Positions 7,082-23,049 of a stretch of 40,403 nt of DNA are shown here, piece by piece (positions within the stretch are counted from its first letter, which is position 1; the number at the start of each line of letters is the position of its first letter). The notes beneath the pieces are model-generated. The model did no database searches and had not been told where the DNA came from. It saw nothing but the letters and a program-made list of their open reading frames with translations. This stretch comes from an uncultured Verrucomicrobiota bacterium (GTDB taxonomy: Bacteria > Verrucomicrobiota > Verrucomicrobiia > Verrucomicrobiales > Verrucomicrobiaceae): contig CAJCCF010000571.1 of the NCBI GenBank assembly GCA_903960845.1, positions 1 through 40,403 of the forward strand, given 5' to 3'. The position numbers were made by a program, and so were the translations under genes.

Positions 7082-7156
7082 GGCTCTCCTATAAACCCTA
7101 TCGCGACTGCATAAAACTTGGAATCTCCCATCACCCCGACACGTTTGAACTTTCCC

Positions 7157-7795
7157 ATGAAATTCGCAGCCCTACTCGCCCTCAGCGCCACGCTCTCCTT
7201 TGCCGCCGACCACCCCGACACCACCGGCTGGAAAGACCTCTTCGCCACCGACCTGTCAAACGCCGTCAGTCCCGGCAGCTGGGCCTTCACCCATGGAGAA
7301 CTCGTCGCCAAAGACCACGACACCCTTTGGACCAGGGACTCGTATGGCGACGTCATCCTCGATCTGGAATTCAAGGTCGCCAAGGAATCCAACAGCGGGG
7401 TCTTCCTCCGCTCCGGCGATATCAAGAACGTCCTCTCAGCCCTCGAAATCCAAGTCCACGACAGTGCCGATGGCAGCAAATACGGGATGGTCGCCGCGAT
7501 TTATGACGCCATGCCGCCCACCAAAAAAATGGCCAAACCCGTCGGCGAGTGGAACCACTTCACCATCACCTGCCAGGGCAGCAAAGTCAGTGTCCTTTTC
7601 AATGGCGAACTCGTCATTGATGCCGATCTCAACAACTGGCCCGATGCCAAAAAGAACCCCGATGGCACGCCCAACAAATTCTCCGTCGCCCTCAAAGATT
7701 TCGCACGCAGCGGACCCATCGGCTTTCAGGGACTTCATGGGAAAGCGCAGGCTCCGGTGTGGTATCGGAATGTGAAAATCAAGGTGCTGAAATAG
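7157..7795 (+). CDS. secreted DUF1080 (3-keto-disaccharide hydrolase-like) protein
   Basis: Signal peptide MKFAALLALSATLSFAA, then DTTGWKDLFATDLSNAVSPGSWAFTHGELVAKDHDTLWTRDSYGDVILDLEFKVAKESNSGVFLRSG...WNHFTITCQGSKVSVLFNGELVIDADL; typical DUF1080 pattern. Confidence 0.88.
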   Translation: MKFAALLALSATLSFAADHPDTTGWKDLFATDLSNAVSPGSWAFTHGELVAKDHDTLWTRDSYGDVILDLEFKVAKESNSGVFLRSGDIKNVLSALEIQVHDSADGSKYGMVAAIYDAMPPTKKMAKPVGEWNHFTITCQGSKVSVLFNGELVIDADLNNWPDAKKNPDGTPNKFSVALKDFARSGPIGFQGLHGKAQAPVWYRNVKIKVLK

Positions 7796-7797
7796 GA

Positions 7798-8931
7798 ATG
7801 CTCCGCTCCTTCCTCCCGCTCGTCATCGCCACCACCGCCTTCGCCGCGCCCATCGAGCGCCTCTGGCTCACGCATGCGACAAACGATCCCTCCAGGATCG
7901 TCATCAACTGGGAAACGGACAAACCTGCCGGTTCCGTGGTCGAGTACGACACGAGCCCTGCACTGACCAGGCGCCTAACCTCGAATGACCAAGTCACCCT
8001 GCACCACGTCGAGATTCCGCTCGAGCAGCGTGACGTGCTGTATCACTACCGCGTGCGCAGCGGCGATGACGCATCCGCCATCGCCACCTTCAAAGGTTAC
8101 CCGGGCAAAGACCTCCGCATCGCCATTGTCGGCGACTGGGGTTATGCGATGGGAAAAGACGTGAGCGCCATCCTCAAAGACGATGTGCATCTGCTGCTCA
8201 CCGCCGGTGACAACGTGGCCAGCCTGCATGAGAAGGGCAAGGAAGGCACCCAAGCCTTCAGCGCCCTCATCGACGCGAACCGCGACCTCTTTCGCAGCAC
8301 ACCCCTGATGCCCATTCTCGGCAACCATGACCGCGAGATCAGCCCGCGCGGCCCGAAGCCACCGGCACACGCTGTTTATGACATCGAAGCCACGGCCTAC
8401 CGCGAGTTCTTCGCACTGCCCGGCGACGAATGGAAATGGCATTTCGATCTCCCTGGATTCGACCTGCGCCTCATCGCGCTGGACCTCAATCACATCCAGG
8501 ATTTCGGCACCACCTGGCAGACGTGCCACGTCTGGCAGACGGATTCACCGCAATTCCAATGGTTCACGGAAACGATGGCCTCCTCAACAAACAGCTTTGT
8601 GCTCACGTTGATGAACGAAAAGCAAACGCAGGTCCTGGGTCTAACCAAAGGCGCATGGCATGAATCCTTTCGCAAGGGCAGCGCGCTCATCACTGGTTTC
8701 GGTTACTTCGCCGACCGCGCCGAGCTCACCGGCGGCATCCCGTATTTCAACACCTGCCTGAAAGGCGACGGCGATCTCTACAAAGACCCGCAATCCAAAT
8801 TCCATGCCCGGGAAGACAATTACCTCCTCCTCACCCTCACGGCAGGCGCGCAGACCATGAAGATCCAATTCAAGAACCTCCGCGGCGAGGTGCTGGACAC
8901 GCGGGAGATCACGAAGAGGGAAACGAAGTAA
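7798..8931 (+). CDS. secreted metallophosphoesterase with N-terminal purple-acid-phosphatase/Fn3-like domain
   Basis: MLRSFLPLVIATTAFAAPIERLWLTHATNDPSRIVINWETDKPAGSVVEYDTSP...; IAIVGDWGY, LLTAGDNVA, PILGNHDRE metallophosphoesterase motifs. Starts 2 nt after the previous stop. Confidence 0.85.
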   Translation: MLRSFLPLVIATTAFAAPIERLWLTHATNDPSRIVINWETDKPAGSVVEYDTSPALTRRLTSNDQVTLHHVEIPLEQRDVLYHYRVRSGDDASAIATFKGYPGKDLRIAIVGDWGYAMGKDVSAILKDDVHLLLTAGDNVASLHEKGKEGTQAFSALIDANRDLFRSTPLMPILGNHDREISPRGPKPPAHAVYDIEATAYREFFALPGDEWKWHFDLPGFDLRLIALDLNHIQDFGTTWQTCHVWQTDSPQFQWFTETMASSTNSFVLTLMNEKQTQVLGLTKGAWHESFRKGSALITGFGYFADRAELTGGIPYFNTCLKGDGDLYKDPQSKFHAREDNYLLLTLTAGAQTMKIQFKNLRGEVLDTREITKRETK

Positions 8932-9061
8932 CCGTCCTGCCCGCAGAGGATGAAAGCGGTGCGGAAAACGAAATAACCGGCCTTCTGCGGTTGCTGCCCC
9001 TTCCCTGTCACGTCTTCACGTCAGTTGCAGTCCATCCGACAGCGGGAATGGTCAGGGCTGT

Positions 9062-10975
9062 TTGAAACCCTGGCTGCTCATCTTCGCGTTGCTCCTCACC
9101 ACCCCCGTGCTCGGTGGTGCGCCGTGGTCATGGCTGAATGGGAAGATCGTGACCATTGAACGGCAGCAGGAACAGCTTCGATCCCAACTTCGCGCGCTTC
9201 CTCCGCCGCCCGGTGTGCAGCCGCATGAGCATGCGGGCTTTCACAGCGGTTTCGCTCCGCAGCCGGATTCGATCCGTTGGGTGCAGCTCGATCTCGGAGT
9301 GGAACACGCACTTGATGCGGTCGTCGTGGTGCCGGCCATGTTCGGCAGCATGGGAGCCTATGGCTTTCCGCATCGCTTTCGGATTGATGCCTCCAATGAT
9401 CCCCTCTTTGGCGAGTCCGTCACGGTGCTCGATCACACAGACAGGGATGTCGAAGAATCGTTCGCGCCATGGCATATCCAGACGGGCTCCACAAAGGCGC
9501 GCTACGTCCGTTTCACGGCCACCAAACTCGCCCCCCAGCCGCGACTGAAAAAGCGCTTCATCTTCTGCCTCGGCGAATTGCTCGTGTTCAGCGGCGGAAT
9601 CAACATCGCGCTGCACTCAGAGGTCTTCGCACCAAACTCCGTCGAAACTCTGCCCACCTGGTCGCCCAAACATCTCGTCGACGGGTGCCACGCGCTGGGG
9701 CTGCCTGTTCAACCCGACGAGGTGACCAGCAATGGCTGGCACAGCGGCATTTCGAGTTCGGCGGATGCCGCCAAGTGGGTGCAGATGGATCTCGGCTCCA
9801 TGCACGCCTTGCAGGAGATCCGTCTCATTCCCGCTCATCCCAGGGATTACCCCGACCGCTTCGGTTTTGGCTTTCCTCAACGGTTCAAAATCGAGGCGGA
9901 TGGCAGGACGATCTTCGACAGCAGCGGTACCGATTTTCTCAATCCGGGTGACACGCCCGTCGCCGTGCCCACGCCGGATCTGCAGGCTCAAACCATCCGC
10001 ATCACCGCCACGCGACTCTGGGAGCGCAGCGGCGATTTCGTCTTTGCACTCGCCGAACTGCAAGCCTTCGCCGGTGGAAAAAACATCGCTCCCGGCGGCG
10101 CCGTCACCAGTTCCGACGACACCATCAGCGCCACATGGCGGCCTGAGTTTCTCGTCGATGGGCGCAGCAGTTCCGGAGCGCTCCTGCAGGAAGAAGCATG
10201 GCTCGGTAATCTCTCAAATCGCCGCCAATACACGCAGGACCTCACCGAACTCGATCGCGAGCACGCACTCGCCCTGGCTCTTGCTCAAGCACGCGCCACA
10301 TGGCTCGGTTGCAGCGCGGCGGTGATGGCCCTCGTGCTTGTTTTTCTCGCGATTCTCCGCACCAAACGCTTTCGCCGCCTGGAAATGGAAACTCTGCGGC
10401 AGCGCATTTCGCGCGATCTGCATGATGAGATCGGCAGCCATCTCGGCAGCATTCGCCTCATGTCCGAGCTCGCCCTCCGCGATGGGTCCGACACCGGTTC
10501 ACTCGAAGAAATCCACCGTCTCGCTGGCGAAGCCGCCGAATCCATGCGCGGCATCATCTGGCTCGTGCGCGAGGGTGATGCGCCCAAACTCACGAGCCTC
10601 CTCGAGGCCATGCGTCAAAGCGCCGCCGCCTTGCTCAAAGGCATCGACTGGCATTTGAATGCTCCGGCTTGCCGCGATCCGGACACCGCCTCGCTGGAAT
10701 TTCACCGGCAGGTCTTCCTCTTTTTTCGCGAAGCCGCGCATAACATCTCCCGCCACGCGCAAGCCACCCGTGTGATGATCACGGCCGCCACGCATGGCAG
10801 GCGCTTTCATCTCCAGATTGAGGACAATGGTTGTGGGTTCGACACCGCCGCCGTCGCCGCTGGCAATGGTCTGGCCAATCTTCGTCACCGGGCGGAAGTC
10901 CTTGGCGGCACGCTTCACATCTCCAGCGAGCCAGGCAAAGGCACGCGCATCACCCTGGAGGCCGACTGGTCATGA
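9062..10975 (+). CDS. sensor histidine kinase (HisKA_3/HATPase_c, NarL-type) with two tandem discoidin-like modules in the N-terminal extracytoplasmic region
   Basis: TTG start with signal-like MKPWLLIFALLLTTPVLGG; two modules each with (F/W)HSG(F/I)...WVQ(L/M)DLG...GFP(H/Q)RF(R/K)I; TM TWLGCSAAVMALVLVFLAIL; HisKA_3 RQRISRDLHDEIGSHLGSIRLMSELAL; HATPase HNISRHAQATRVMI...IEDNGCGFD...GNGLANLRHRAEVLGGTLHISSEPGKGTRI. Confidence 0.88.
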   Translation: MKPWLLIFALLLTTPVLGGAPWSWLNGKIVTIERQQEQLRSQLRALPPPPGVQPHEHAGFHSGFAPQPDSIRWVQLDLGVEHALDAVVVVPAMFGSMGAYGFPHRFRIDASNDPLFGESVTVLDHTDRDVEESFAPWHIQTGSTKARYVRFTATKLAPQPRLKKRFIFCLGELLVFSGGINIALHSEVFAPNSVETLPTWSPKHLVDGCHALGLPVQPDEVTSNGWHSGISSSADAAKWVQMDLGSMHALQEIRLIPAHPRDYPDRFGFGFPQRFKIEADGRTIFDSSGTDFLNPGDTPVAVPTPDLQAQTIRITATRLWERSGDFVFALAELQAFAGGKNIAPGGAVTSSDDTISATWRPEFLVDGRSSSGALLQEEAWLGNLSNRRQYTQDLTELDREHALALALAQARATWLGCSAAVMALVLVFLAILRTKRFRRLEMETLRQRISRDLHDEIGSHLGSIRLMSELALRDGSDTGSLEEIHRLAGEAAESMRGIIWLVREGDAPKLTSLLEAMRQSAAALLKGIDWHLNAPACRDPDTASLEFHRQVFLFFREAAHNISRHAQATRVMITAATHGRRFHLQIEDNGCGFDTAAVAAGNGLANLRHRAEVLGGTLHISSEPGKGTRITLEADWS

Positions 10976-11604
10976 ACACGATCTGGATTATCGAAGACCA
11001 CGTCGCCTTTCGCCGCACGCTTGTTCGTGTGCTGAACACCGAAACCGGACTGCAATGCACCCGTGATTTCGATTCATGTGAGAAAGCACTCGCCGCACTC
11101 GCGCATGATGAGGCACCCGGTTTAATCCTGCTCGATGTCGGGCTGCCCGGCATGAGCGGCCTGGATGGCATCCGCCTGCTCAAGGAACGCGCGCCCAAAT
11201 CGCTTGTCGTCATCCTCACGGTGTTTGAAGACGACGACAAAGTCTTCCAGGCCGTCTGCGCCGGTGCCGCCGGCTATCTGCTGAAGACCAGCAGCGCAAC
11301 CGACATCACCCAGGCCGTGCGTGATGCACTCGCTGGCGGATCGCCCATGACACCGCGCATCGCCCGCCGGGTGCTCGACATGTTCTCGAAATTTGCGCCG
11401 AAGCAGAGTGACTATGGCCTCAGCGACCGCGAAAAGGAAATCCTCCTGCTCATGACCACCGGACTGATCAAGAAGGAGATCGCCGACAAACTCACCCTCA
11501 GCATCCATACCGTCGATACGTATCTGCGCCGCATCTATGAAAAGCTTGAGGTCAACACCCGCACCGGCGCCGTGGCCAAGGCCCTCAAAGAAGGGCTCGT
11601 GTGA
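10972..11604 (+). CDS. NarL/LuxR-family response regulator
   Basis: ATGA overlap with the kinase stop; MNTIWIIEDHVAFRRTLVRVL...LILLDVGLPGMSGLDGIRLLKERAP...ILTVFEDDDKVFQAVCAGAAGYLLKTSS; HTH LSDREKEILLLMTTGLIKKEIADKLTLSIHTVDTYLRRIYEKLEVNTRTGAVAKAL. Confidence 0.95.
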   Translation: MNTIWIIEDHVAFRRTLVRVLNTETGLQCTRDFDSCEKALAALAHDEAPGLILLDVGLPGMSGLDGIRLLKERAPKSLVVILTVFEDDDKVFQAVCAGAAGYLLKTSSATDITQAVRDALAGGSPMTPRIARRVLDMFSKFAPKQSDYGLSDREKEILLLMTTGLIKKEIADKLTLSIHTVDTYLRRIYEKLEVNTRTGAVAKALKEGLV

Positions 11605-11660
11605 ATGTCCCGCGCTCGCGTGGCATGAAACACGGCCATCTCCGCCGTATGAATGATAGC

Positions 11661-14618
11661 ATGCGCCCTTTCTGTCTCATCGCCCTCGCCGCCACGCCCG
11701 TCTTCGCCGTCGATTTCGTGCGCGAGGTTCGTCCCATTTTCGAGAAGCACTGCTATGAATGCCACGGCGCAAACAAGCAGAAGAACGACTTCAGGCTGGA
11801 TATCAAATCCATCGCCATGACCGGCGGTGAAAATCACGCGCCCAACATCATCGCCGGAAAAAGCGCGGCGAGTCCGCTGTTCCGATTCGTGAGCGGCCTG
11901 GAAAAGGATGTGGCGATGCCGCCAAAATCCAAACTCAGCAGCTCCGAGATCGGCGTGCTCAAGCGCTGGATTGATGAAGGTGCCGTGTGGCCGGACGGTG
12001 TGGATGTCGCGAAGGTCGAGGACCGGCTTGATTGGTGGAGTTTCAAACCCTTGAAAGCGGTTTCGGCTTTAACCGGAAAGCCCCGGCCGGTTTCCATCGA
12101 CACCTTCACCCGCGCAAAGCTGGATGAAAAAAGTTTATCACCAGCTCCCGCCGCCGACGCGAACACGCTGATCCGCCGCATTTTTTTCGATCTCACCGGC
12201 CTGCCGCCGACACCGGAGGAAATGGTGAAGTATGCCGCGCTGCCTTATGAGAAACTGGTGGACGATCTGCTGGCCTCACCGCGTTACGGCGAGCGCTGGG
12301 CACGGCACTGGCTCGATCTCGTGCACTACGGTGAAACGCATGGTTACGACAAGGACAAGCCGCGCAACAACGCCTGGCCCTACCGCGATTATGTGATCCG
12401 CGCATTCAACAACGACAAACCCTATGCGCGCTTCATCGAAGAACAAATCGCCGGTGATGTGCTCTATCCAGGCACCACGGACGGCATCACCGCGCTCGGC
12501 TTCATTTCCGCAGGGCCTTGGGATTACATCGGACACGCGGAGGTGCCGGAGACGAAGCTCGATGGCAAGATCGCGCGGCATCTGGATCGCGATGACATGG
12601 TGCAAAACACCATCGGCACTTTTTGTTCGCTCACCGTTCAGTGCGCGCAGTGCCACTACCACAAGTTTGATCCGATCTCGCAGGAGGACTACTACTCGCT
12701 GCAGGCGGTGTTCGCGGCGGTTGACCGCACAGACGTGAACTACTACCCGGACGATGCCTCCATGCAGCGCTTCGCCGGCTTGGACAAACAGCGCAAAGAA
12801 GTTGCGACCAGCATCGCCGCGCTGGAAGAACCGCTCAAAAACAAAGCGGGAGCCGCCTACGCCGCCCTGAGCAAACGCATCGACGGAGCCGCGGACAAGG
12901 CCTCAGGCACCAATCCAAACGCCAAGCCTGACTTCGGTTACCACAGCAGCATTTCGGACAAACAGGACGCGGTAAAATGGGTGCAGGTCGATCTTGGCCG
13001 CACGGTTGAGATCGAGCGGGTCGTGCTCAAGCCATGCTACGATGACTTCGGCAAGATCGGTGGCGGCTTCGGCTTCCCGGTGCGATTCAAACTCGAAGCC
13101 AGTGACGATCCTGAATTCAAAACCGGCGTCACACTCATCTGGCGCAAGCATGACGCGACGTTCATGAATGATTTCAAGAATCCGGGCCTGACGCCCTTTG
13201 AAACCAACACCGCCGGCGATGACGGCGTGAAAGGCCGTTATGTCCGCGTCACGGCTGTCAAACTCGCACCGCGCAAAGACGACTACATCCTCGCACTCGC
13301 CGAGATGCAGGTCTTTGATGACAAGAAGGGTAAGAACCTGGCTGAAGGCCGCCCTGTCACCGCGCTGGACAGCATCGAAGCCGCACCGCGCTGGCGAAAG
13401 GCCAATCTCACCGACGGCATCGCCCCTGAAGCACGCACTCTGGAGGACAAACAAAAGCTCATCCGCGAACGCGACGCCCTGATGCTCGCAAACGCTGATC
13501 AAGCCACGCGCGCCAAGCTCAACGCCGCACGCAAACAGCGGTCTGCCATCGACGATGAAATCGCCAGGCTCCCCGCGCCCGGAAAAGTCTATGCGGGAGC
13601 CATCCACACCGGCAGTGGCGCCTTCAAAGGCACCGGCAATGAAGGCGGCAAGCCACGCACCATCCAGGTGCTCAAACGTGGAGACATCAAGCAGCCCGCC
13701 AAAGAAGTCGGTCCGGACAGCATCGCCGCACTAAGCCAATGGTTTCATGTGCCGTTTAAAGTCGCCGGTGATCATGAATCCGCCCGCCGCGCGGCTTTGG
13801 CCCAATGGATCACCGACAAAAACAATGCGCTCACCTGGCGCAGCATCGTCAATCGCGTCTGGCAGCATCACTTTGGCCGCGGCCTGGTCGATACCGCGAA
13901 CGACTTCGGCCGCATGGGCGGCCAGCCAAGTCATCCGGAGCTTCTCGACTGGCTGGCGATCACTTTCCGCGATGACATGAGCGGCAGTTTGAAAAAGCTG
14001 CACAAGCTCATCGTGATGAGTGGAACCTACAAACAGCGGAGTGATGGAATCTCAGCGTCCGATGCCAACAACGTCTTCCTGTCGCATCAAAACCGCCGCA
14101 AGCTCGATGCCGAATCCATTCGCGACAGCATCCTCACAGTCAGCGGCAAGCTCGACCTCACCATGGGCGGACCGAGCTTTCAGGACTTCATCATCGAGAA
14201 GCCGCAGCACAGTCCGCATTATGAATACGCGCTGCACGATCCTGAAGACCCGAAGAGCCACCGCCGCAGCATCTACCGCTTCATTGTCCGCAGCCAGCAG
14301 CAGCCATTCATGACCATCCTGGACTGCGCCGATCCATCCATGCGCGTGGACAAGCGCAACGAATCCCTCAGCCCTCTCCAGGCCCTCACCATGATGAACA
14401 ACGGGCTCACCGTCGCCATGGCAAAACATTTTGCGGCGCGTGTGTCGAAGGAATCTCAAGGTCTCGAAGCACAAACGAGGCGTGCCTTCACTCTCGCCCT
14501 CGCGCGCGATCCAAAGCCCGGTGAACTTGCTCCGCTCATCGACTATGCCAAACGCGAAGGCCTGGAGAACACCTGCCGCGTGATCCTGAATCTGAACGAA
14601 TTCATCTTTGTCGATTGA
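11661..14618 (+). CDS. large secreted PSCyt1 (c-type cytochrome)-DUF1549-DUF1553 protein with an internal discoidin-like module
   Basis: Signal MRPFCLIALAATPVFA; FVREVRPIFEKHCYECHGANKQKNDFRLD (CxxCH); LTGLPPTPEE...ASPRYGERWARHWLDLVHYGETHG (DUF1549); second CxxCH (CAQCHYHKFDPI); module GYHSSISDKQDAVKWVQVDLG...GFGFPVRFKLEASDD; DUF1553 NRVWQHHFGRGLVDTANDFGRMGGQPSHPELLDWLA. Alternative GTG start at 11601 overlaps the response-regulator stop. Confidence 0.9.
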   Translation: MRPFCLIALAATPVFAVDFVREVRPIFEKHCYECHGANKQKNDFRLDIKSIAMTGGENHAPNIIAGKSAASPLFRFVSGLEKDVAMPPKSKLSSSEIGVLKRWIDEGAVWPDGVDVAKVEDRLDWWSFKPLKAVSALTGKPRPVSIDTFTRAKLDEKSLSPAPAADANTLIRRIFFDLTGLPPTPEEMVKYAALPYEKLVDDLLASPRYGERWARHWLDLVHYGETHGYDKDKPRNNAWPYRDYVIRAFNNDKPYARFIEEQIAGDVLYPGTTDGITALGFISAGPWDYIGHAEVPETKLDGKIARHLDRDDMVQNTIGTFCSLTVQCAQCHYHKFDPISQEDYYSLQAVFAAVDRTDVNYYPDDASMQRFAGLDKQRKEVATSIAALEEPLKNKAGAAYAALSKRIDGAADKASGTNPNAKPDFGYHSSISDKQDAVKWVQVDLGRTVEIERVVLKPCYDDFGKIGGGFGFPVRFKLEASDDPEFKTGVTLIWRKHDATFMNDFKNPGLTPFETNTAGDDGVKGRYVRVTAVKLAPRKDDYILALAEMQVFDDKKGKNLAEGRPVTALDSIEAAPRWRKANLTDGIAPEARTLEDKQKLIRERDALMLANADQATRAKLNAARKQRSAIDDEIARLPAPGKVYAGAIHTGSGAFKGTGNEGGKPRTIQVLKRGDIKQPAKEVGPDSIAALSQWFHVPFKVAGDHESARRAALAQWITDKNNALTWRSIVNRVWQHHFGRGLVDTANDFGRMGGQPSHPELLDWLAITFRDDMSGSLKKLHKLIVMSGTYKQRSDGISASDANNVFLSHQNRRKLDAESIRDSILTVSGKLDLTMGGPSFQDFIIEKPQHSPHYEYALHDPEDPKSHRRSIYRFIVRSQQQPFMTILDCADPSMRVDKRNESLSPLQALTMMNNGLTVAMAKHFAARVSKESQGLEAQTRRAFTLALARDPKPGELAPLIDYAKREGLENTCRVILNLNEFIFVD

Positions 14619-14669
14619 AACAATGCATTGCCGGAAACGGAGCGGTGCTCATACTCAAATCCCACTTCC

Positions 14670-15779
14670 ATGAACACCCAACACCCCGCTGAACGCATTC
14701 TACTTGGCCCCGGCCCCAGTCCTGTCCCCGCACGAGTGCTGCGTGCACTCGGCGCACCGACGCTCGGGCATCTTGATCCGCAGTATGTCGCCATCATGGA
14801 CGAGGTCTGCGAGATGCTGAGGCAGGTGTTTCAGACAAAGAATGCACTCACCTTCCCTGTCAGCGGCACGGGCATGGCCGGGATGGAATGCATCGCTGTG
14901 AATCTCATTGAGCCGGGAGATGAAGTGATCGTCTGCGTGAACGGCGTCTTCGGCGGCCGCATGAAGGATGTCATGGAGCGCTGCGGCGCCACGGTGCATG
15001 CCGTCGAGGCCGCGTGGGGTGATGTCATTTCCCCTGATCAAATCGCCGCCGCGCTTGAGCAGCATCCAAAAACCAAACTCGTCGGCATCGTGCATGCGGA
15101 AACCAGCACGGGTGCGCTGCAACCTCTCGAAGGTCTGGCCGACCTCGTCCACGGCAAAGGCGCGCTGCTCGTCGTTGATGCCGTCACCAGCCTCGGCGGT
15201 CATGAATTGAAAGTCGATGAATGGGGCATCGACGCCATCTACAGCGGTACCCAGAAGTGCCTGAGTTGCCCGCCCGGCCTCGCGCCTGTCAGCTTTGGTG
15301 ATCGTGCGCTCGCCGTCATGGATGCGCGCAAGACGAAAGTGCAGTCTTGGTATCTCGATGTCTCCATGCTGCGCAAATACTACCTCGGCGGCGGTGGTGG
15401 CCGCGTGTATCACCACACCGCGCCGATCAACATGACCTACGCATTGCGCGAAGCTCTCGCCATCGTGCTAGAAGAGGGTCTTGAGGCCCGCATCGCTCGG
15501 CACGCGCTGATGCATCAGCGTTTGCGCGCCGGACTTGAAGCCATGGGCATCAGCTATGTGCCGAAGCATTCGCTGCACTCGCTCAACTGCATCCACATTC
15601 CCGCCGGAGCTGATGACGCAGGCACGCGCAAGCGTTTGCTCGAAGAATACGGCATCGAAATCGGTGCCGGCCTCGGCGTCATGGCCGGCAAAGCCTGGCG
15701 CATCGGCCTCATGGGCCATGGATCGACCGTGCGGAATGTCGATCTCGTGCTCACGGCGCTGAAGAACGTGCTGAAGTAA
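14670..15779 (+). CDS. class V aminotransferase, alanine/serine-glyoxylate aminotransferase type
   Basis: [54 protein letters not shown]...[35 protein letters not shown]...[44 protein letters not shown] (Lys in SGTQKCL). Confidence 0.92.
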
Positions 15780-15792
15780 TCCATCCCTGCTC

Positions 15793-15878
15793 CTCTGCCT
15801 CTCCGCCCCTCTGCGACAAAACGAACGTTGGGTGGCTCCGGTTTGCCGCAGAGTAGCAGAGGGGCAAAGGCGCAGAGT
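15793..15878. repeat. imperfect inverted repeat (REP-like long hairpin) between the aminotransferase gene and glcD
   Basis: Left arm CTCTGCCTCTCCGCCCCTCTGCGACAAAAC; right arm GTTTGCCGCAGAGTAGCAGAGGGGCAAAGGCGCAGAG is approximately its reverse complement; a T run (gagttttta) follows. Confidence 0.65.
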
Positions 15879-15890
15879 TTTTATCAGACC

Positions 15891-17327
15891 ATGCCACTCG
15901 CACGCCTCGCCCAAATCCTCCCATCGGACCGCATCCTCATGCGCCCGGTGGAACTGGCGGCCTACGAAAGCGATGGCCTAACTGCCTTTCGTACAAAACC
16001 GCTCGCGGTTGTCGTGCCGGAGACGGCGGCGGAAGTCATCGCCATTGTGCGGCTTTGCCACGAATTGAAGCTCCCGTTTGTGGCACGCGGCAGCGGCACG
16101 AGCCTCTCCGGTGGCTCGCTGCCGATCGCGGAAGGCATCGTCATTGCGCTGAATCGTCTCAATCGCATTCTGAAGCTCGATCCGCTGCAGCGCATCGCCA
16201 TCGTGGAGCCTGGCGTGATCAACACGCAGGTCACCACGGAAGCGGCCCCGTTCGGCCTGCACTACGCACCTGATCCATCGTCGCAAAGCGTCTGCACCAT
16301 CGGCGGAAACGTGGCTTTCAACTCCGGCGGCGCACACTGTTTGAAATACGGCATGACCTCCAATCACGTGCTCGGCATCAAGGCTGTGCTTGCCACCGGA
16401 GAGGTCGTCGAATGGGGCGATGGCAGCCGTGAACGCAATGGACCTGACTGGTGCGGCCTGTTCACGGGCAATGAAGGTCTCTTCGGCATTGCCCTCGAGA
16501 TCACGCTCCAGCTTTTGCCAAAAGCGGAATGCTTCCACACGGTGCTGGCCGGCTATCGCACGCTCGAACAAGCCGGTGATGCCGTCTCCGCGGTGATCGC
16601 CAGCGGCCTGCTGCCCGGAGCCATCGAGATCATGGACGCGCTGGCTCTTGAGGCTGCGGTGGCCGCTGTGCATGCCGAATATCCGCCCGGATGCGAGGCC
16701 GTGCTCATCGTCGAACTCGAAGGCCCGCGCGAAGTCGTCGCCATCGAACGTGAACGTCTCGATGCCATCCTCGCCGCCAGCCAGCCTGTCGAAATGCGGC
16801 CTGCGCGTGATGCCGGGGAGCGCATGGCCATTTGGAAAGGCCGGAAAAGCGCCTTCAGCGCCGTGGGCCGGCTCTCGCCGGACTTTATCGTGCAGGACGG
16901 CGTCGTGCCGCGTCGCAAACTGGGAGAGGCGCTGCGCCGCATCGCTGAAATGTCGCATGAGGCCAACATCCGCGTGGCGAATGTCTTCCATGCCGGTGAT
17001 GGCAATCTGCATCCGCTCATCCTGTTTGATGGCCGTGAAGAAGGTGCGCTGCATCGAGCAGAATCGCTCGCGGGCCGCATCCTGAAAATGTGCATCGAAA
17101 TGGGTGGCTCCATCACCGGCGAGCATGGCATCGGCGTCGAGAAACGTGACTTTCTTGGCGACATGTTCACGGACGATGAGATCGACTGCATGCAGCGCCT
17201 GCGCGCCGCCTTTGATCCGCTCGGCATTGCCAACCCGGGCAAGATGTTTCCCGGCAAAGAAGCGCCCGCTTTGTCCCATGTTGGTCTGCATCCGCTGGAG
17301 AAGGCCGGCATCATCTCACGCGAATGA
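15891..17327 (+). CDS. glcD: glycolate oxidase FAD-binding subunit GlcD
   Basis: [55 protein letters not shown]...[45 protein letters not shown]...[14 protein letters not shown]...[18 protein letters not shown]; followed by glcE and glcF. Confidence 0.93.
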
Positions 17328-18268
17328 TCCTGCCCGCCACACTCGCCGAACTCCGCGACGCGGTGCTCTCCGCACCGCGAGTCATCGCCGTGGGCGCCGA
17401 AACGAAGCCCCGTCTGTCCGCTGTCGATGCGGTTAAAATTTCCACGCGGCAACTGCGGGGCATCATCGAGTATGATCCGGGCGAGTTCACATTCACGGCG
17501 CTGGCGGGAACGCCTGTGAGCGAAATCATCGCCGCACTCGCCGAGCGCGCGCAGTATCTGCCTTTCGATCCGATGCTCGTCGAGGCTGGCAGCACCATCG
17601 GCGGCGTGGTGGCCAGCGGTCTCAGCGGTCCGGGCCGCTTCCGCTATGGTGGTGTGCGGGATTTCATTCTCGGCGTTCGCTTTGTCGATGGCCCGGGCCG
17701 CTTGCTGAGACTCGGCGGCAAGGTGGTGAAGAACGCGGCGGGTTTTGATGTGCCCAAGTTTTTGGTCGGCAGTCTTGGAAGATTCGGCGTGATTGGCGAA
17801 GTGACCTTCAAAGTGTTTCCGCGTCGCGAATCGACGCTGACACTCCAGATGCCCTTCGATGCCGGAACGATGGCCCGCATCGCCAATTCACGTTTCGAGG
17901 CCGATGCGCTGGATGTTTTGCCCGGTGGTGAAACGCTTCTCGTACGCCTCGCCGGGCCTGGAAAAGCCCTTGAAGTGCTCGCGAAGGAAATCGGCGGCGA
18001 CAGCATTGCCAACACGATTTGGGACGAGGTTCGCGAAACCCATTGGAAATTCAAAACCGGCCTCACGCCGGATCAAATCTCCGGTTTCAAAGCCGCGCAT
18101 GTGAGCTGCGCTGGTAACGTGGCTTTTTCAAACACGCTTCCTCCTCACGGCATGACCCTGCGCGGCGATTCACCCCTCTGGATCGGCACTCGTCCGCGTT
18201 ACGCCATTGAGAGTGCGGTGAAGCAGGCGCTCGATCCGCAACATCGTTTTCCCACACTCGACGACTGA
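17324..18268 (+). CDS. glcE: glycolate oxidase FAD-binding subunit GlcE
   Basis: FAD-binding type fold [38 protein letters not shown]...[79 protein letters not shown]; overlaps the GlcD stop by 4 nt. Confidence 0.92.
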
Positions 18269-19518
18269 TGCTCCACTCCATTCCAACTGACCAATTCGGC
18301 CCGCTGGGCGAACCGATGGCGAAAGCGGTGTCGGCCTGTGTGCATTGCGGCTTCTGCCTCGCCGCATGCCCGACGTATCGAGAACTCGGTCAGGAAATGG
18401 ACACACCGCGTGGCCGCATCGTTCTCATGAAAGAGGTTCTCGAAGGCACGATGAGCTTTGAGGACGCGCAGCCTCATGTGGATCGTTGTCTCGGTTGCCT
18501 CGCGTGCGAGCCTGCCTGTCCGAGCGGCGTGCCGTATCGCGATTTGATCAGCCCGTTTCGCGCTGTGGCAGCCTCGAAGATGAAACGTGGGCTGTTGGAA
18601 AGGCTGCGGCGTTTTCTGGCAGCGCAGACGGTGCCTTATCCAAAGCGGTTTCGTGTGGCGGCACGGATGGCACGGATCGGAAGAATGGTTCCGATGCCAA
18701 AGGCCTGGCGGGCGATGCTGGAACTGATGCCTGACACGATTCCACCCGCTCAGTCATGGACTGAGGTGAATCCCGCCATCGGTGCCAAGCGCGCCCGTGT
18801 GACCTTGCTGACGGGCTGTGCACAGCAGGTGCTCGATCCTGACATCAACACGGCCACCATCGAGGTGCTCACCCGGAATGGCATCGAGGTTGTCGTTCCG
18901 CGCCTGCAAGGTTGCTGCGGTGGTTTGGCTTGGCACACGGGTGATCTCGCTGCAGCGCAGCGTTTTGCCCGGCAGAATCTGGAGGCCTTTCCCGACGATG
19001 TGGACGCCATCCTCACGAACGCCGCCGGCTGTGGCTCGGCGATGCATGAATATCACCTCGTGCTGCGCGGTACGCCGGATGAGGCACGGGCGGAAGCCTT
19101 CCGGCATCACGTGATGGATGTGAGTGTCTTTTTGATGAAACTCGGTCTGCGGGAGCCGCTGCGGGAGACCCAACTCAAAGCCGCCTATCACGATGCCTGC
19201 CACCTCTCGAATGCCCAAAACGTCAGCCGTCAGCCGCGCGACCTGTTGAAAGCCATTCCAGGGCTGCAACTGCTCGAGATCACCGATTCGCATCTCTGCT
19301 GCGGCAGCGCAGGCAGCTACAACATGGACCAGCCCGCGATCGCCTCATCACTGGGCACGCAAAAAGCCAGGAACATTCTCGCCACAGGCGCGGAGATCGT
19401 CGTGACCGGAAACATCGGCTGCATGACTCAGGTGGCGATGCATCTGAAGAAACTCGGATCACCGATTCGAGTGAGGCACACGATGCAAGTCTTGCGCGAT
19501 GCCCATCAACCGAAATAG
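18268..19518 (+). CDS. glcF: glycolate oxidase iron-sulfur subunit GlcF
   Basis: Two 4Fe-4S motifs CVHCGFCLAACPTY and CLGCLACEPACPSGVPY; CCG-domain motifs GCCGGLAWHTGD and CCGSAGSYN; starts at the last base of the GlcE stop codon. Confidence 0.95.
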   Translation: MLHSIPTDQFGPLGEPMAKAVSACVHCGFCLAACPTYRELGQEMDTPRGRIVLMKEVLEGTMSFEDAQPHVDRCLGCLACEPACPSGVPYRDLISPFRAVAASKMKRGLLERLRRFLAAQTVPYPKRFRVAARMARIGRMVPMPKAWRAMLELMPDTIPPAQSWTEVNPAIGAKRARVTLLTGCAQQVLDPDINTATIEVLTRNGIEVVVPRLQGCCGGLAWHTGDLAAAQRFARQNLEAFPDDVDAILTNAAGCGSAMHEYHLVLRGTPDEARAEAFRHHVMDVSVFLMKLGLREPLRETQLKAAYHDACHLSNAQNVSRQPRDLLKAIPGLQLLEITDSHLCCGSAGSYNMDQPAIASSLGTQKARNILATGAEIVVTGNIGCMTQVAMHLKKLGSPIRVRHTMQVLRDAHQPK

Positions 19519-19528
19519 CATACCGGGA

Positions 19529-19921
19529 ATGATGAAACTCCTTCAGGCCGCTTGGAAACAAATACATAGACTGTGCATCCTGCTGATGCGTGGTTTTGGC
19601 GGCCTCCTGATGGTGTTAGCGATGTACAATCTGCTGCGAATCGTTGTTCATGCCCTGTTGGGAGGGCCCGTGGTTTTAGGGCGCATGCAATTCGGTCTCC
19701 CTGAGTTGGTCATTGGTTCCGCCCATCTCACCGGCAACACTTGGTGGAGCATGTTGATCCTGATCTTGATTAACCTGTTCTTCCTCGCCTGGGGATGGGA
19801 TTTGAAGAATATCGGCAGGCCAAATCGACCCATCTCGCCAGGTGGAAGAGCGCATCGCGCTCTGGCAGCGACACGTATCAAACTGCTTTTTAACACCTTA
19901 CTGCGCCGGCCCAACCGCTGA
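19529..19921 (+). CDS. small membrane protein of unknown function in the glycolate cluster
   Basis: MMKLLQAAWKQIHRLCILLMRGFGGLLMVLAMYNLLRIVVHALLGG...TWWSMLILILINLFFLAWGWDL; at least two predicted TM segments, 10 nt after glcF and 17 nt before the permease. Confidence 0.6.
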   Translation: MMKLLQAAWKQIHRLCILLMRGFGGLLMVLAMYNLLRIVVHALLGGPVVLGRMQFGLPELVIGSAHLTGNTWWSMLILILINLFFLAWGWDLKNIGRPNRPISPGGRAHRALAATRIKLLFNTLLRRPNR

Positions 19922-19938
19922 TCTTCATCCACCCATTC

Positions 19939-21555
19939 ATGACCTGGTCCCAAAACTACGATCCGCTCGGCAATCTGATTCTCTCCTCACTCGTGGCAGC
20001 GGTGCCGGTGGTGACGTTATTGGGGCTGCTGGCATTCTGGCATGTGCGGGCACAAATCGCCGCTGCTGCTGGACTCACCGCCGCGCTTTTGATTGCTGTG
20101 TTTGTGTATCACATGCCCGCGGCGATGGCGGGCATGGCGGCGGTGAATGGAGCGGTGTTTGGGCTGTTTCCCATCGGCTGGATTGTGCTGAACGCGATGT
20201 TTGTTTACAACCTGAGCGTGGAGACGGGCCAGTTCGCCGTGCTGCAGCGGCAGATTGCGAATGTTTCAAGCGACCGTCGCATTCAGGCCTTGCTAATCGC
20301 GTTCGCATTTGGTGCGTTCATTGAAGGCGCAGCAGGTTTTGGTGCTCCGGTGGCGATCACGGGTGCACTCATGATCGGTCTTGGTTTCAAACCGCTGGAG
20401 GCGGCGAAGCTGGCTCTGATTGGAAACACCGCGCCGGTGGCGTTTGGATCGCTGGGCACCCCACTGACAACCCTTGCGGACATCACGGGCCTGGATCTGC
20501 TTTCACTCAGCGCGATGGTTGGCAGGCAGTTGCCGTTGTTCTCACTCATCGTGCCGTTCTGGCTGGTGGCAGCCCAGGTTGGCTTGCGTGGGATGCTCGG
20601 CGTGTGGCCGGCGTGTTTCGTCACTGGAGCCAGTTTTGGCTTCATGCAGTTGGTGATGAGCAACTATCATGGACCCTGGCTGGTGGACATCGTGAGCGCC
20701 GTGGTGTCGATGGCGGCGCTCGTGCTGTTCATGAAAGTGTGGACGCCAAAGGAGGCAGGCGAAAAACCGGCGGTGGCAGAAGTGCGCGGTGCATCCCCGT
20801 GGAAGGCGTGGCTGCCGTGGGTGTTTTTGACGGCCTTCGTTTTCTGCTGGGGCATGCCGGCGGTGAAATCGGGTTTGAACGCTGTCTTCAATCAAGAAAT
20901 CGAGGTGCCCATGCTGCACAAACTGGTGGAACGCGTGCCGCCGGTGGTTGTTCATCCGGAACTGGAGAAAGCGGTGTTCAAATTCAATGCTCTATCGGCT
21001 ACCGGCACCGCTGCGATGCTCGCAGGTATGGTGGCCGGATTGTGTCTCGGCCTCTCGCCGAAGCGCCTGCTCATCTTGTATGGCATCACGGTTTGGAAGT
21101 TGCGCGTGTCACTGCTGACCATCGCTCTCATGCTCGCACTGGGTTATGTGACGCGCTACAGCGGCACAGACACGACGATGGGCCTCATGATGGCCGGGAC
21201 GGGTGTGTTGTTTCCATTTTTCTCGCCGGTCATCGGCTGGCTCGGCGTGGCACTTACCGGCAGCGACACCTCTTCGAACGTGCTCTTTGGCAACCTGCAG
21301 CAAGTCACGGCTAACCAACTGCATCTCTCACCCATTCAAATGGCCGCCGCAAACAGCTCCGGCGGGGTGATGGGCAAGATGATCGATGCGCAAAGCATCG
21401 TCGTCGCCAGCGTGGCGACCGGTGGTCATGCTGACAGCCCCGATGCCGGCACGGTGCTGCGCAGCGTCTTCTGGCATAGCGTGGCGCTGGCGCTGCTGAT
21501 GGGATTGCTGGTGATGGCACAGGCCTACTGGATGCCGTGGATGATCGTGAAGTGA
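19939..21555 (+). CDS. glcA: L-lactate permease family transporter (LctP/GlcA; probable glycolate permease by context)
   Basis: Polytopic; AFAFGAFIEGAAGFGAPVAITGALMIGLGFKPLEAAKLALIGNTAPVAFGSLGTPLTTLADITGLD, ALTGSDTSSNVLFGNLQQVTANQLHLSPIQMAAANSSGGVMGKMIDAQSIVVA; LctP family hallmarks; directly downstream of glcDEF. Confidence 0.88.
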   Translation: MTWSQNYDPLGNLILSSLVAAVPVVTLLGLLAFWHVRAQIAAAAGLTAALLIAVFVYHMPAAMAGMAAVNGAVFGLFPIGWIVLNAMFVYNLSVETGQFAVLQRQIANVSSDRRIQALLIAFAFGAFIEGAAGFGAPVAITGALMIGLGFKPLEAAKLALIGNTAPVAFGSLGTPLTTLADITGLDLLSLSAMVGRQLPLFSLIVPFWLVAAQVGLRGMLGVWPACFVTGASFGFMQLVMSNYHGPWLVDIVSAVVSMAALVLFMKVWTPKEAGEKPAVAEVRGASPWKAWLPWVFLTAFVFCWGMPAVKSGLNAVFNQEIEVPMLHKLVERVPPVVVHPELEKAVFKFNALSATGTAAMLAGMVAGLCLGLSPKRLLILYGITVWKLRVSLLTIALMLALGYVTRYSGTDTTMGLMMAGTGVLFPFFSPVIGWLGVALTGSDTSSNVLFGNLQQVTANQLHLSPIQMAAANSSGGVMGKMIDAQSIVVASVATGGHADSPDAGTVLRSVFWHSVALALLMGLLVMAQAYWMPWMIVK

Positions 21556-21615
21556 TCCGCGATTGCGTGACAAAGGGTGACTCGCCAGCAGCGTATTGAT
21601 CGTCCACACTTCTCA

Positions 21616-23049
21616 ATGCTCACCCGCCGCCAGTTACTTCAGACAGCCGGACAAGGTTTCGGCTCTCTCGCCTTTGCCTCGCTGGAAGCGGCAGAGACTT
21701 CGCACCGCTCGCAAGTCATCGTCCCAAAGGCGAAACGCGTGATTCAACTCTTCATGGGCGGTGCGGCATCGCACATCGACCTCTTCGACTACAAGCCGGC
21801 TCTCATCAAACACCACGGTGAAGAGTCGAATTTCGGTGAAGCCGTGGAGGCCTTTCAAAATGGACTCGGGCCCTGGAAGAAACCCGTGTGGGACTTCAAG
21901 CCTTATGGTCAGTGTGGAAGAATGCTGAGCGAAGCCGTGGCACCACTCGGCGCTTGTGCCGATGACATGGCCTTTGTGCATAACATGATCGGAAAGACAG
22001 GCGTGCATTCACAAGCCACCCTGCTCCAGGCCACCGGCTTCAATCTGCCCGGTTTTCCAGGCTTTGGTTGCTGGGTAAGCTACGGCCTGGGGTCATTGAG
22101 TGACAATTTACCGGCCTTCGTCGTGCTGCCCGATCACCGCGGCTTTGCATCCAACGGGCCGAAAAACTGGGACTCGGCTTTTTTACCGTCAGAGAATGCA
22201 GGGACGATCATCTATCCGGGCGCAGAGACACCCATCACGGATTTGTTTCCACACAAGGCCGGGCGCTACATCTCGAAAAAATCCGATCGTGAAAGTTTTG
22301 AACTGCTTGAGCAATTGAACCGCCAGCACATGCAGCAGCGCGCGGAAGACAGCCGCCTCGACTCACGCATCAAGAGCTACGAACTCGCCGCCAAGATGCA
22401 GCTCGCCGCACCTGAAGCCCTGGACATCAGCAAGGAGTCCGACGCGATGAAAGCGATGTATGGCATTCAGGAACACCGCAAAGTCTGGCCCACGGAGATC
22501 AATCCCGAGGAGGAAGCCGACTACATGGGACGCAAGTGTCTTGCCGCGCGCCGGCTGCTGGAGCGCGGCGTGCGTTTCGTCCAGATCTGGAGTGGCAACG
22601 ACAACGGCTTTCCACGCCGCAACTGGGACAGTCACGAAGATGTCGAGCGCGACCACGGCCCGCTGGCATGGGGCATGGCCAAGGCCGTCAGCGCCTTGAT
22701 TCTTGATTTGAAACAGCGCGGCCTGCTTGATGACACCATCATCTTGTGGACCACGGAGTTTGGCCGGATGCCCAGCACGCAGGGCGGCAGGGGTCGTGAC
22801 CACAATCCCTACGTCTTCACCAACTGGCTCTGTGGCGGTGGCATCAAGGGCGGTGTGGTCGCGGGCGAGAGTGATCAATGGGGCTACAAACCGCTCGACC
22901 GCGCCAATCCAACAACCTGCTACGACATTCATGCCACGATGATGCACCTGCTCGGCATCGATCACACCAGACTCACGATGCGGCACAACGGCATCGACCG
23001 CCGTCTGACGGATGTGCACGGGCGCGTGATCAAGGACCTGCTTGCCTAA
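21616..23049 (+). CDS. DUF1501 (secreted, sulfatase-like fold) protein
   Basis: [27 protein letters not shown] (Tat-like); [25 protein letters not shown]...[19 protein letters not shown]...[38 protein letters not shown]...[42 protein letters not shown]. Confidence 0.92.

Follow-up and report, generated by a model that had tools for sequence, protein, structure and literature searches.

Two kinds of bacterial system offer the nearest comparisons for membrane sensors with carbohydrate-type ectodomains. In the biomass sensors of Clostridium thermocellum (RsgI/SigI), RsgI is an anti-sigma factor that acts through proteolysis, and in the polysaccharide utilisation loci of Bacteroides, hybrid two-component systems with a Reg_prop/Y_Y_Y ectodomain carry out locus-specific glycan sensing with one regulator per locus. 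The locus described here lies in a stretch of 40,403 nucleotides from an uncultured Verrucomicrobiota bacterium (the window, meaning the whole DNA analysed), where genes for a sensor histidine kinase, a NarL/LuxR-type response regulator and a PSCyt protein follow one another. The likeness to RsgI/SigI is a works-like analogy, namely a membrane sensor with a carbohydrate-binding-type module that would control exported carbohydrate-use proteins; the window system, however, pairs a histidine kinase with a response regulator whose predicted target is almost private, and Pfam scans of the three window proteins found neither the RsgI N-terminal domain nor a sigma-I factor. Similarly, locus-specific two-component control with one regulator per locus is shared with the Bacteroides hybrids, but kinase and regulator are separate proteins here, the kinase is of the HisKA_3 type, and its ectodomain is discoidin-like. 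In kinase core and regulator domains, gene order and the single regulator downstream, the pair matches the DesK/NarX/UhpB-type HisKA_3 kinases with their NarL/LuxR regulators, and it differs from them in an ectodomain of tandem discoidin-type modules; no named NCBIfam equivalog was reached at cut-off.

The third protein has the domain order of the PSCyt1-PSCyt2-PSD1 group of He et al. 2017 (PMC5615132), who stated that nothing was known of the functions of PSCyt proteins and had already reported CBM/F5_F8_type_C domains in some of them, together with a conserved partner gene family; a histidine kinase is not mentioned there. Here, by contrast with that work, a probable dedicated regulator and a control element accompany a PSCyt gene, and among open-licence papers no report on discoidin kinases in Verrucomicrobia was found. 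Our main reading, held at roughly 80% probability from sequence comparison, is a dedicated, autoregulated two-component system that controls very few genes and has the PSCyt gene as its target, in which a glycan-sensing kinase would act through the regulator on a 22-bp element. The sensor probably exists to control one PSCyt protein, because kinase and PSCyt protein carry related modules and their genes share a rare element that, within the genome, occurs at just these two places.

Kinase, regulator and PSCyt protein

The kinase, regulator, PSCyt and DUF1501 genes, with the modules and control elements, lie on the plus strand. The kinase gene (9062..10975) was identified by HisKA_3 and HATPase_c Pfam matches, an AlphaFold2 model and PDB matches of its core; its start codon, TTG in the window, is uncertain. 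Pfam finds two F5_F8_type_C stretches, HisKA_3 and HATPase_c, and the layout is an N-terminal signal/anchor helix, module 1 of F5/8C type (residues 58–181; 9233..9604), module 2 (residues 224–341; 9731..10084), both placed by a subfamily profile, a membrane helix, HisKA_3 with H454, and HATPase_c. The model (mean pLDDT 85) shows the N-terminal helix, two beta-rich modules and a helix of about 97 residues (377–473) that leads to the kinase core and contains the membrane segment (10289..10360, from sequence and model). Among 24 aligned sequences, H454, N561, D588, G590 and G592 are invariant. The nearest solved structures to the core include ZraS, DesK-family kinases and VraS (PDB/Foldseek), and with the whole kinase as Foldseek query, kinase cores alone were among the best 50.

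The regulator gene (10972..11604) encodes a receiver (Response_reg) and a GerE domain in Pfam, and its orthologues are 81–90% identical; the phospho-acceptor histidine, the N/G boxes of HATPase_c and an adjoining receiver–GerE regulator, as expected of a two-component system, are thus all present. The initial annotation described three consecutive genes with overlap or near-overlap, of which the first part stands, with 4 nt shared between kinase and regulator. The near-overlap of regulator and PSCyt gene arose because the start of the reading frame had been taken at 11601, to which the open frame extends back; orthologues begin at an MRxx signal peptide that corresponds to 11661, leaving a gap of 56 nt that contains a conserved control element. 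From this start the PSCyt gene spans 11661..14618, as set by Pfam and orthologue starts, and encodes a protein with an apparent signal peptide, CxxCH motifs for haem binding and a single module related to those of the kinase. PSCyt1, PSCyt2 (DUF1549) and PSD1 (DUF1553) are all above cut-off and in order, with F5_F8_type_C between PSCyt2 and PSD1, where the subfamily profile places the module at residues 445–579 of the 11601 frame (12933..13337). Pfam domains thus confirm the kinase, the regulator and the PSCyt protein with matching modules that had been recognised by eye. The AlphaFold2 model of the PSCyt protein is poor (pLDDT 53.5).

The DUF1501 neighbour expected of PSCyt1-PSCyt2-PSD1 proteins is also present, in the window 7 kb downstream of the PSCyt gene (21577..23049); it is the orthologue of the gene directly 3' of PSCyt in several relatives, and is likely to be a functional partner of PSCyt and a candidate member of the regulon. 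The interval at 14628–21555 holds a class-V aminotransferase, two FAD-binding oxidase subunits (GlcD/GlcE-like), a GlcF-like Fe-S protein and an L-lactate permease, and these glycolate/lactate genes look inserted between PSCyt and DUF1501. Upstream of the kinase (7118–8931) are a 3-keto-disaccharide hydrolase (DUF1080-type) and a calcineurin-like phosphoesterase, the latter adjoining the kinase in just two other loci (L060, L071).

Gene order and the 22-bp element

Gene order was compared in 21 same-genus genomes with a kinase orthologue, the window's own included (kinase identity 63–72%, PSCyt 75–83%). The PSCyt gene follows the regulator directly in 10 of these, and in six more it stands on the same strand, 2.0–9.4 kb downstream, so that gene order is kept in 16 of 21, as had been anticipated; in the other five it is on another contig or cut by a contig end, and in G033 it is truly unlinked, because about 20 kb of contig 3' of the kinase holds no PSCyt gene. 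Other genes flanking the trio vary and are common to few loci only. Across the genus, kinase and PSCyt occur together in 21 genomes, the kinase alone in none, PSCyt without an intact kinase in seven and neither in seven (Fisher p = 5e-4, counted over genomes that are not phylogenetically independent). PSCyt is kept without the kinase in several genomes and so can do without this regulator, a point against the main reading. The closest named relatives of the source genome are MAGs labelled Prosthecobacter or Verrucomicrobiaceae; several records named 'Akkermansia muciniphila' carry Prosthecobacter-like loci (L060, L072, L079, L081), and these names look wrong.

Alignment of the upstream regions shows one conserved block in a poorly conserved background, in the form TGTCCCGC..TCGCGTGG.ATG before PSCyt and TGTC(C/A)CG..TTCGCGTGGGTTG before the kinase. 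Conservation and pattern search place a 22-bp element, a candidate response-regulator operator, at 9006..9027 upstream of the kinase (TGTCACGTCTTCACGTCAGTTG) and at 11606..11627 upstream of PSCyt (TGTCCCGCGCTCGCGTGGCATG), with the consensus TGTC[C/A]CGY..TCGCGTG...TG about 35–55 nt 5' of the two starts. Over 24 distinct sites its shape is that of two TCNCG boxes in an 8-bp repeat (61% match); the dyad symmetry is weaker (53%). The PSCyt element abuts a conserved promoter-like block, ATGAAA-N17-TATGA, which reaches to 11652 and is recognised by its conservation, since a sigma-70 scan of 8900–11800 returned no plus-strand promoter.

The element is rare. The window contains only these two matches even at three mismatches, and in the 5.9-Mb draft source genome they are the sole matches at up to one mismatch; at the same threshold, matches in 464 kb of loci lie upstream of kinase and PSCyt genes. 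The PSCyt form has one or two copies in each of eight whole genomes. With the combined pattern at no more than one mismatch, the PSCyt site is found in 21 of 21 kinase-positive genomes and the kinase site in 20 of 21, a sensitivity that is partly by construction because these same sites served to define the pattern. In 56 genomes, all exact matches lie at kinase or PSCyt genes (in G003 at a kinase-gene remnant), against two matches in total for the reversed control pattern, and the element is kept at PSCyt also where PSCyt sits on another contig; neither the absence of sites elsewhere nor the way unlinked PSCyt copies behave is a product of pattern construction. Third sites with one mismatch occur in G010, G013 and G052, with no kinase, regulator or PSCyt homologue around the G010 site, and an extra copy in G017 probably comes from overlapping contig ends.

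Natural losses of the kinase–regulator pair bear on the same question. Among kinase-negative genomes, G007, G011, G029 and G006 (74% complete) have either no PSCyt element or a badly decayed one, and that of G004 is weaker; in G007 and G011 the boxes are broken and the downstream promoter-like block (TGAAA...CGTATGA) is kept. The element is intact at PSCyt without an intact kinase in G003 and G024 (87% complete), and both bear scars of internal kinase–regulator deletions, apparently independent: in G003 (L350) kinase residues 1–198 run into regulator residues 168–209, and in G024 (L353) the element adjoins the last 29 residues of the regulator. This pattern is what decay of the element following regulator loss would leave, and it is the best indirect evidence for the regulator reading the element. 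That another regulator instead uses the element, or that it is a dispersed repeat, with adjacency as mere genus-level synteny, would agree with the mismatches in some genomes' sites and with the indirect case for binding by this regulator; however, about two sites per genome do not make a dispersed repeat, the flanking genes are unconserved, and neither the retention of the element at PSCyt genes elsewhere in the genome nor its decay with the kinase and regulator, with scars in the exceptions, would be expected, which leaves this explanation very improbable.

Under the reading we prefer, a dedicated two-component system, an external ligand, most probably a saccharide or a fragment of a glycan, would bind to the two tandem periplasmic modules. 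One membrane helix would carry the signal to the HisKA_3/HATPase core, from which it would reach the NarL-type regulator, as is usual for these families. The regulator would then bind the element before its own operon and before the PSCyt gene, most likely activating both; activation is proposed because the PSCyt element is directly upstream of a weak -35-like box, a point of promoter geometry only. The PSCyt protein, judging from its family, would act with the DUF1501 partner in periplasmic carbohydrate oxidation. The earlier suggestion that the kinase tunes its own downstream effector is strongly supported, through gene order, one-way co-occurrence and an element at two genes, as a prediction from sequence.

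Discoidin-type modules and the ligand

The modules belong to one subfamily. With the F5/8C profile of Pfam, the kinase scores 50 bits over two stretches and the PSCyt protein 28.9 against a cut-off of 28.2, and module 2 alone, at 23.8 bits, falls under that cut-off and matches the subfamily profile (built from 16 modules) at 148.8 bits. When the kinase was searched against its own genome, the only hits were to the PSCyt module (39%, 7e-22), to a paralogous kinase and to kinase cores, with none to the genome's other F5/8C proteins; the modules resemble one another more than generic F5/8C domains do. The paralogous kinase is found near-identically at two contig ends (C433 and C485; L024, L025), consistent with a strain mixture (contamination 6%). 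Of about 75 PSD1 genes in the source genome, the kinase-adjacent one alone carries the subfamily module according to the kinase search and the module profile, the latter applied to the window and 30 of these loci; further PSCyt proteins in the genome have generic F5/8C matches beyond the reach of both. Each module is followed by a segment (NIA...LVDG) that may represent the fold's first strand in a displaced position. The best PDB sequence match of the module is the fucolectin-related 2j22. F-type lectins (CBM47) bind fucose through the motif H-x26-R-x-D, and membership in this family was rejected, the motif His and Arg having no counterpart at the aligned module positions.

The subfamily profile matched in 24 of 195 Verrucomicrobiota genomes searched. 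Across the loci examined, it is found in tandem pairs before HisKA_3 kinases, nearly always with a NarL-type regulator adjoining (one Pontiella kinase scored three module stretches), in PSCyt1-PSCyt2-PSD1 proteins, in nine GH78 alpha-L-rhamnosidases (L260, L262, L263, L266–L269, L272, L273) and in one GH127 protein (L261). In a tree of 102 modules, built on few columns and with many open forks that leave the deep order unsettled, 18 of 19 PSCyt modules cluster (99/75), 17 of these at 96/91; most kinase first modules fall together, as do six GH78 modules, and second modules are spread over several groups. The modules group by host protein and position, so that their sharing among protein types is old and they have been inherited in place since.

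This bears on the proposal of the initial annotation that kinase and PSCyt modules have a common ligand, plausibly a glycan, owing to exchange of the module between sensor and effector. The two belong to the same subfamily, rare in the genome, sit in neighbouring and apparently co-regulated genes, probably share a compartment, and have 27–35 positions conserved and identical between module groups. However, the tree, in which kinase modules are separate from those of DUF1553 proteins, places the sharing in the distant past, and recent exchange or gene conversion was rejected on the same grouping; in addition, the PSCyt module is nearly as close to GH78/GH127 modules (26–41% identity) as to those of its own kinase (38% to module 1, 42% to module 2), and the two kinase modules are as far apart from one another (38%) as from it. 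Exchange for a common ligand is not borne out, and we regard this shared-ligand reading as less likely than not.

A glycan as kinase ligand is plausible, as had been suggested, because the subfamily occurs in GH78/GH127 enzymes and because kinase relatives have fucosidase and sulfatase neighbours; such neighbourhoods make a glycan signal likely and do not by themselves name the ligand. The kinase might instead respond to the PSCyt protein as such, or to that protein's redox or assembly state, through discoidin–discoidin contact and not sugar binding, which would agree with He et al. 2017 (PMC5615132) classing F5_F8_type_C in PSCyt proteins as a protein–protein domain, and with a kinase that never occurs without a PSCyt gene in the genus. 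We consider this improbable, since that co-occurrence is already explained by regulation of the PSCyt gene and the GH78/GH127 enzymes that contain the module, like the fucosidase and sulfatase genes around kinase relatives in G222 and G209, fit glycan binding better.

Paralogous and wider kinase relatives

In 10 of 11 cases, genes of a paralogous kinase subfamily in the same genus are preceded by a different element, the 18-bp palindrome CCCCCGAATGTTCGGGGG. A single exact copy is present in each of 13 genomes and two are present in another, mostly at the paralogous kinase. Of 15 sites inspected, 8 place the palindrome between this kinase and a divergently oriented group-III PSCyt gene (PSD3-PSD5-PSD4-PSCyt3-PSD2), and three further sites adjoin neither kinase nor PSCyt. 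The loci concerned are L137, L140–L142, L161, L164 and L361–L373. As far as such patterns tell, the second subfamily repeats the private-operator design of the first. Other kinase relatives adjoin PSCyt genes in L155, L157 and L259.

Tandem-discoidin kinases are numerous in two genomes, with about 19–20 in G222 and about 14 in G209 (L235–L254), and 38 sampled genes beside them include 9 alpha-L-fucosidases and 8 sulfatases. An 885-kb replicon of G222 carries 15 of 19 kinases and, among those listed, 93 sulfatases; it is kinase-enriched as a whole, and the idea that its kinases lie nearer to sulfatases than by chance was unsupported (median 4.3 kb against 4.1 kb expected). The replicon recalls, by analogy, the megaplasmids mentioned for fucoidan-degrading Verrucomicrobiota isolates (PMC8857213). 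Only tentatively do we extend the proposal to a phylum-wide class of glycan-sensing systems with tandem discoidin ectodomain, HisKA_3 kinase, NarL-type regulator and private operators, some of which would control a PSCyt protein that oxidises the glycan sensed by way of related modules.

The private operator would offer a handle on a cytochrome family, as a compound that switches it on would point to the likely substrate class of the cytochrome. Meanwhile, the kinase architecture is repeated some 20-fold in a sulfatase-rich genome, and the ligands of these sensors may report which algal glycans Verrucomicrobiota detect.
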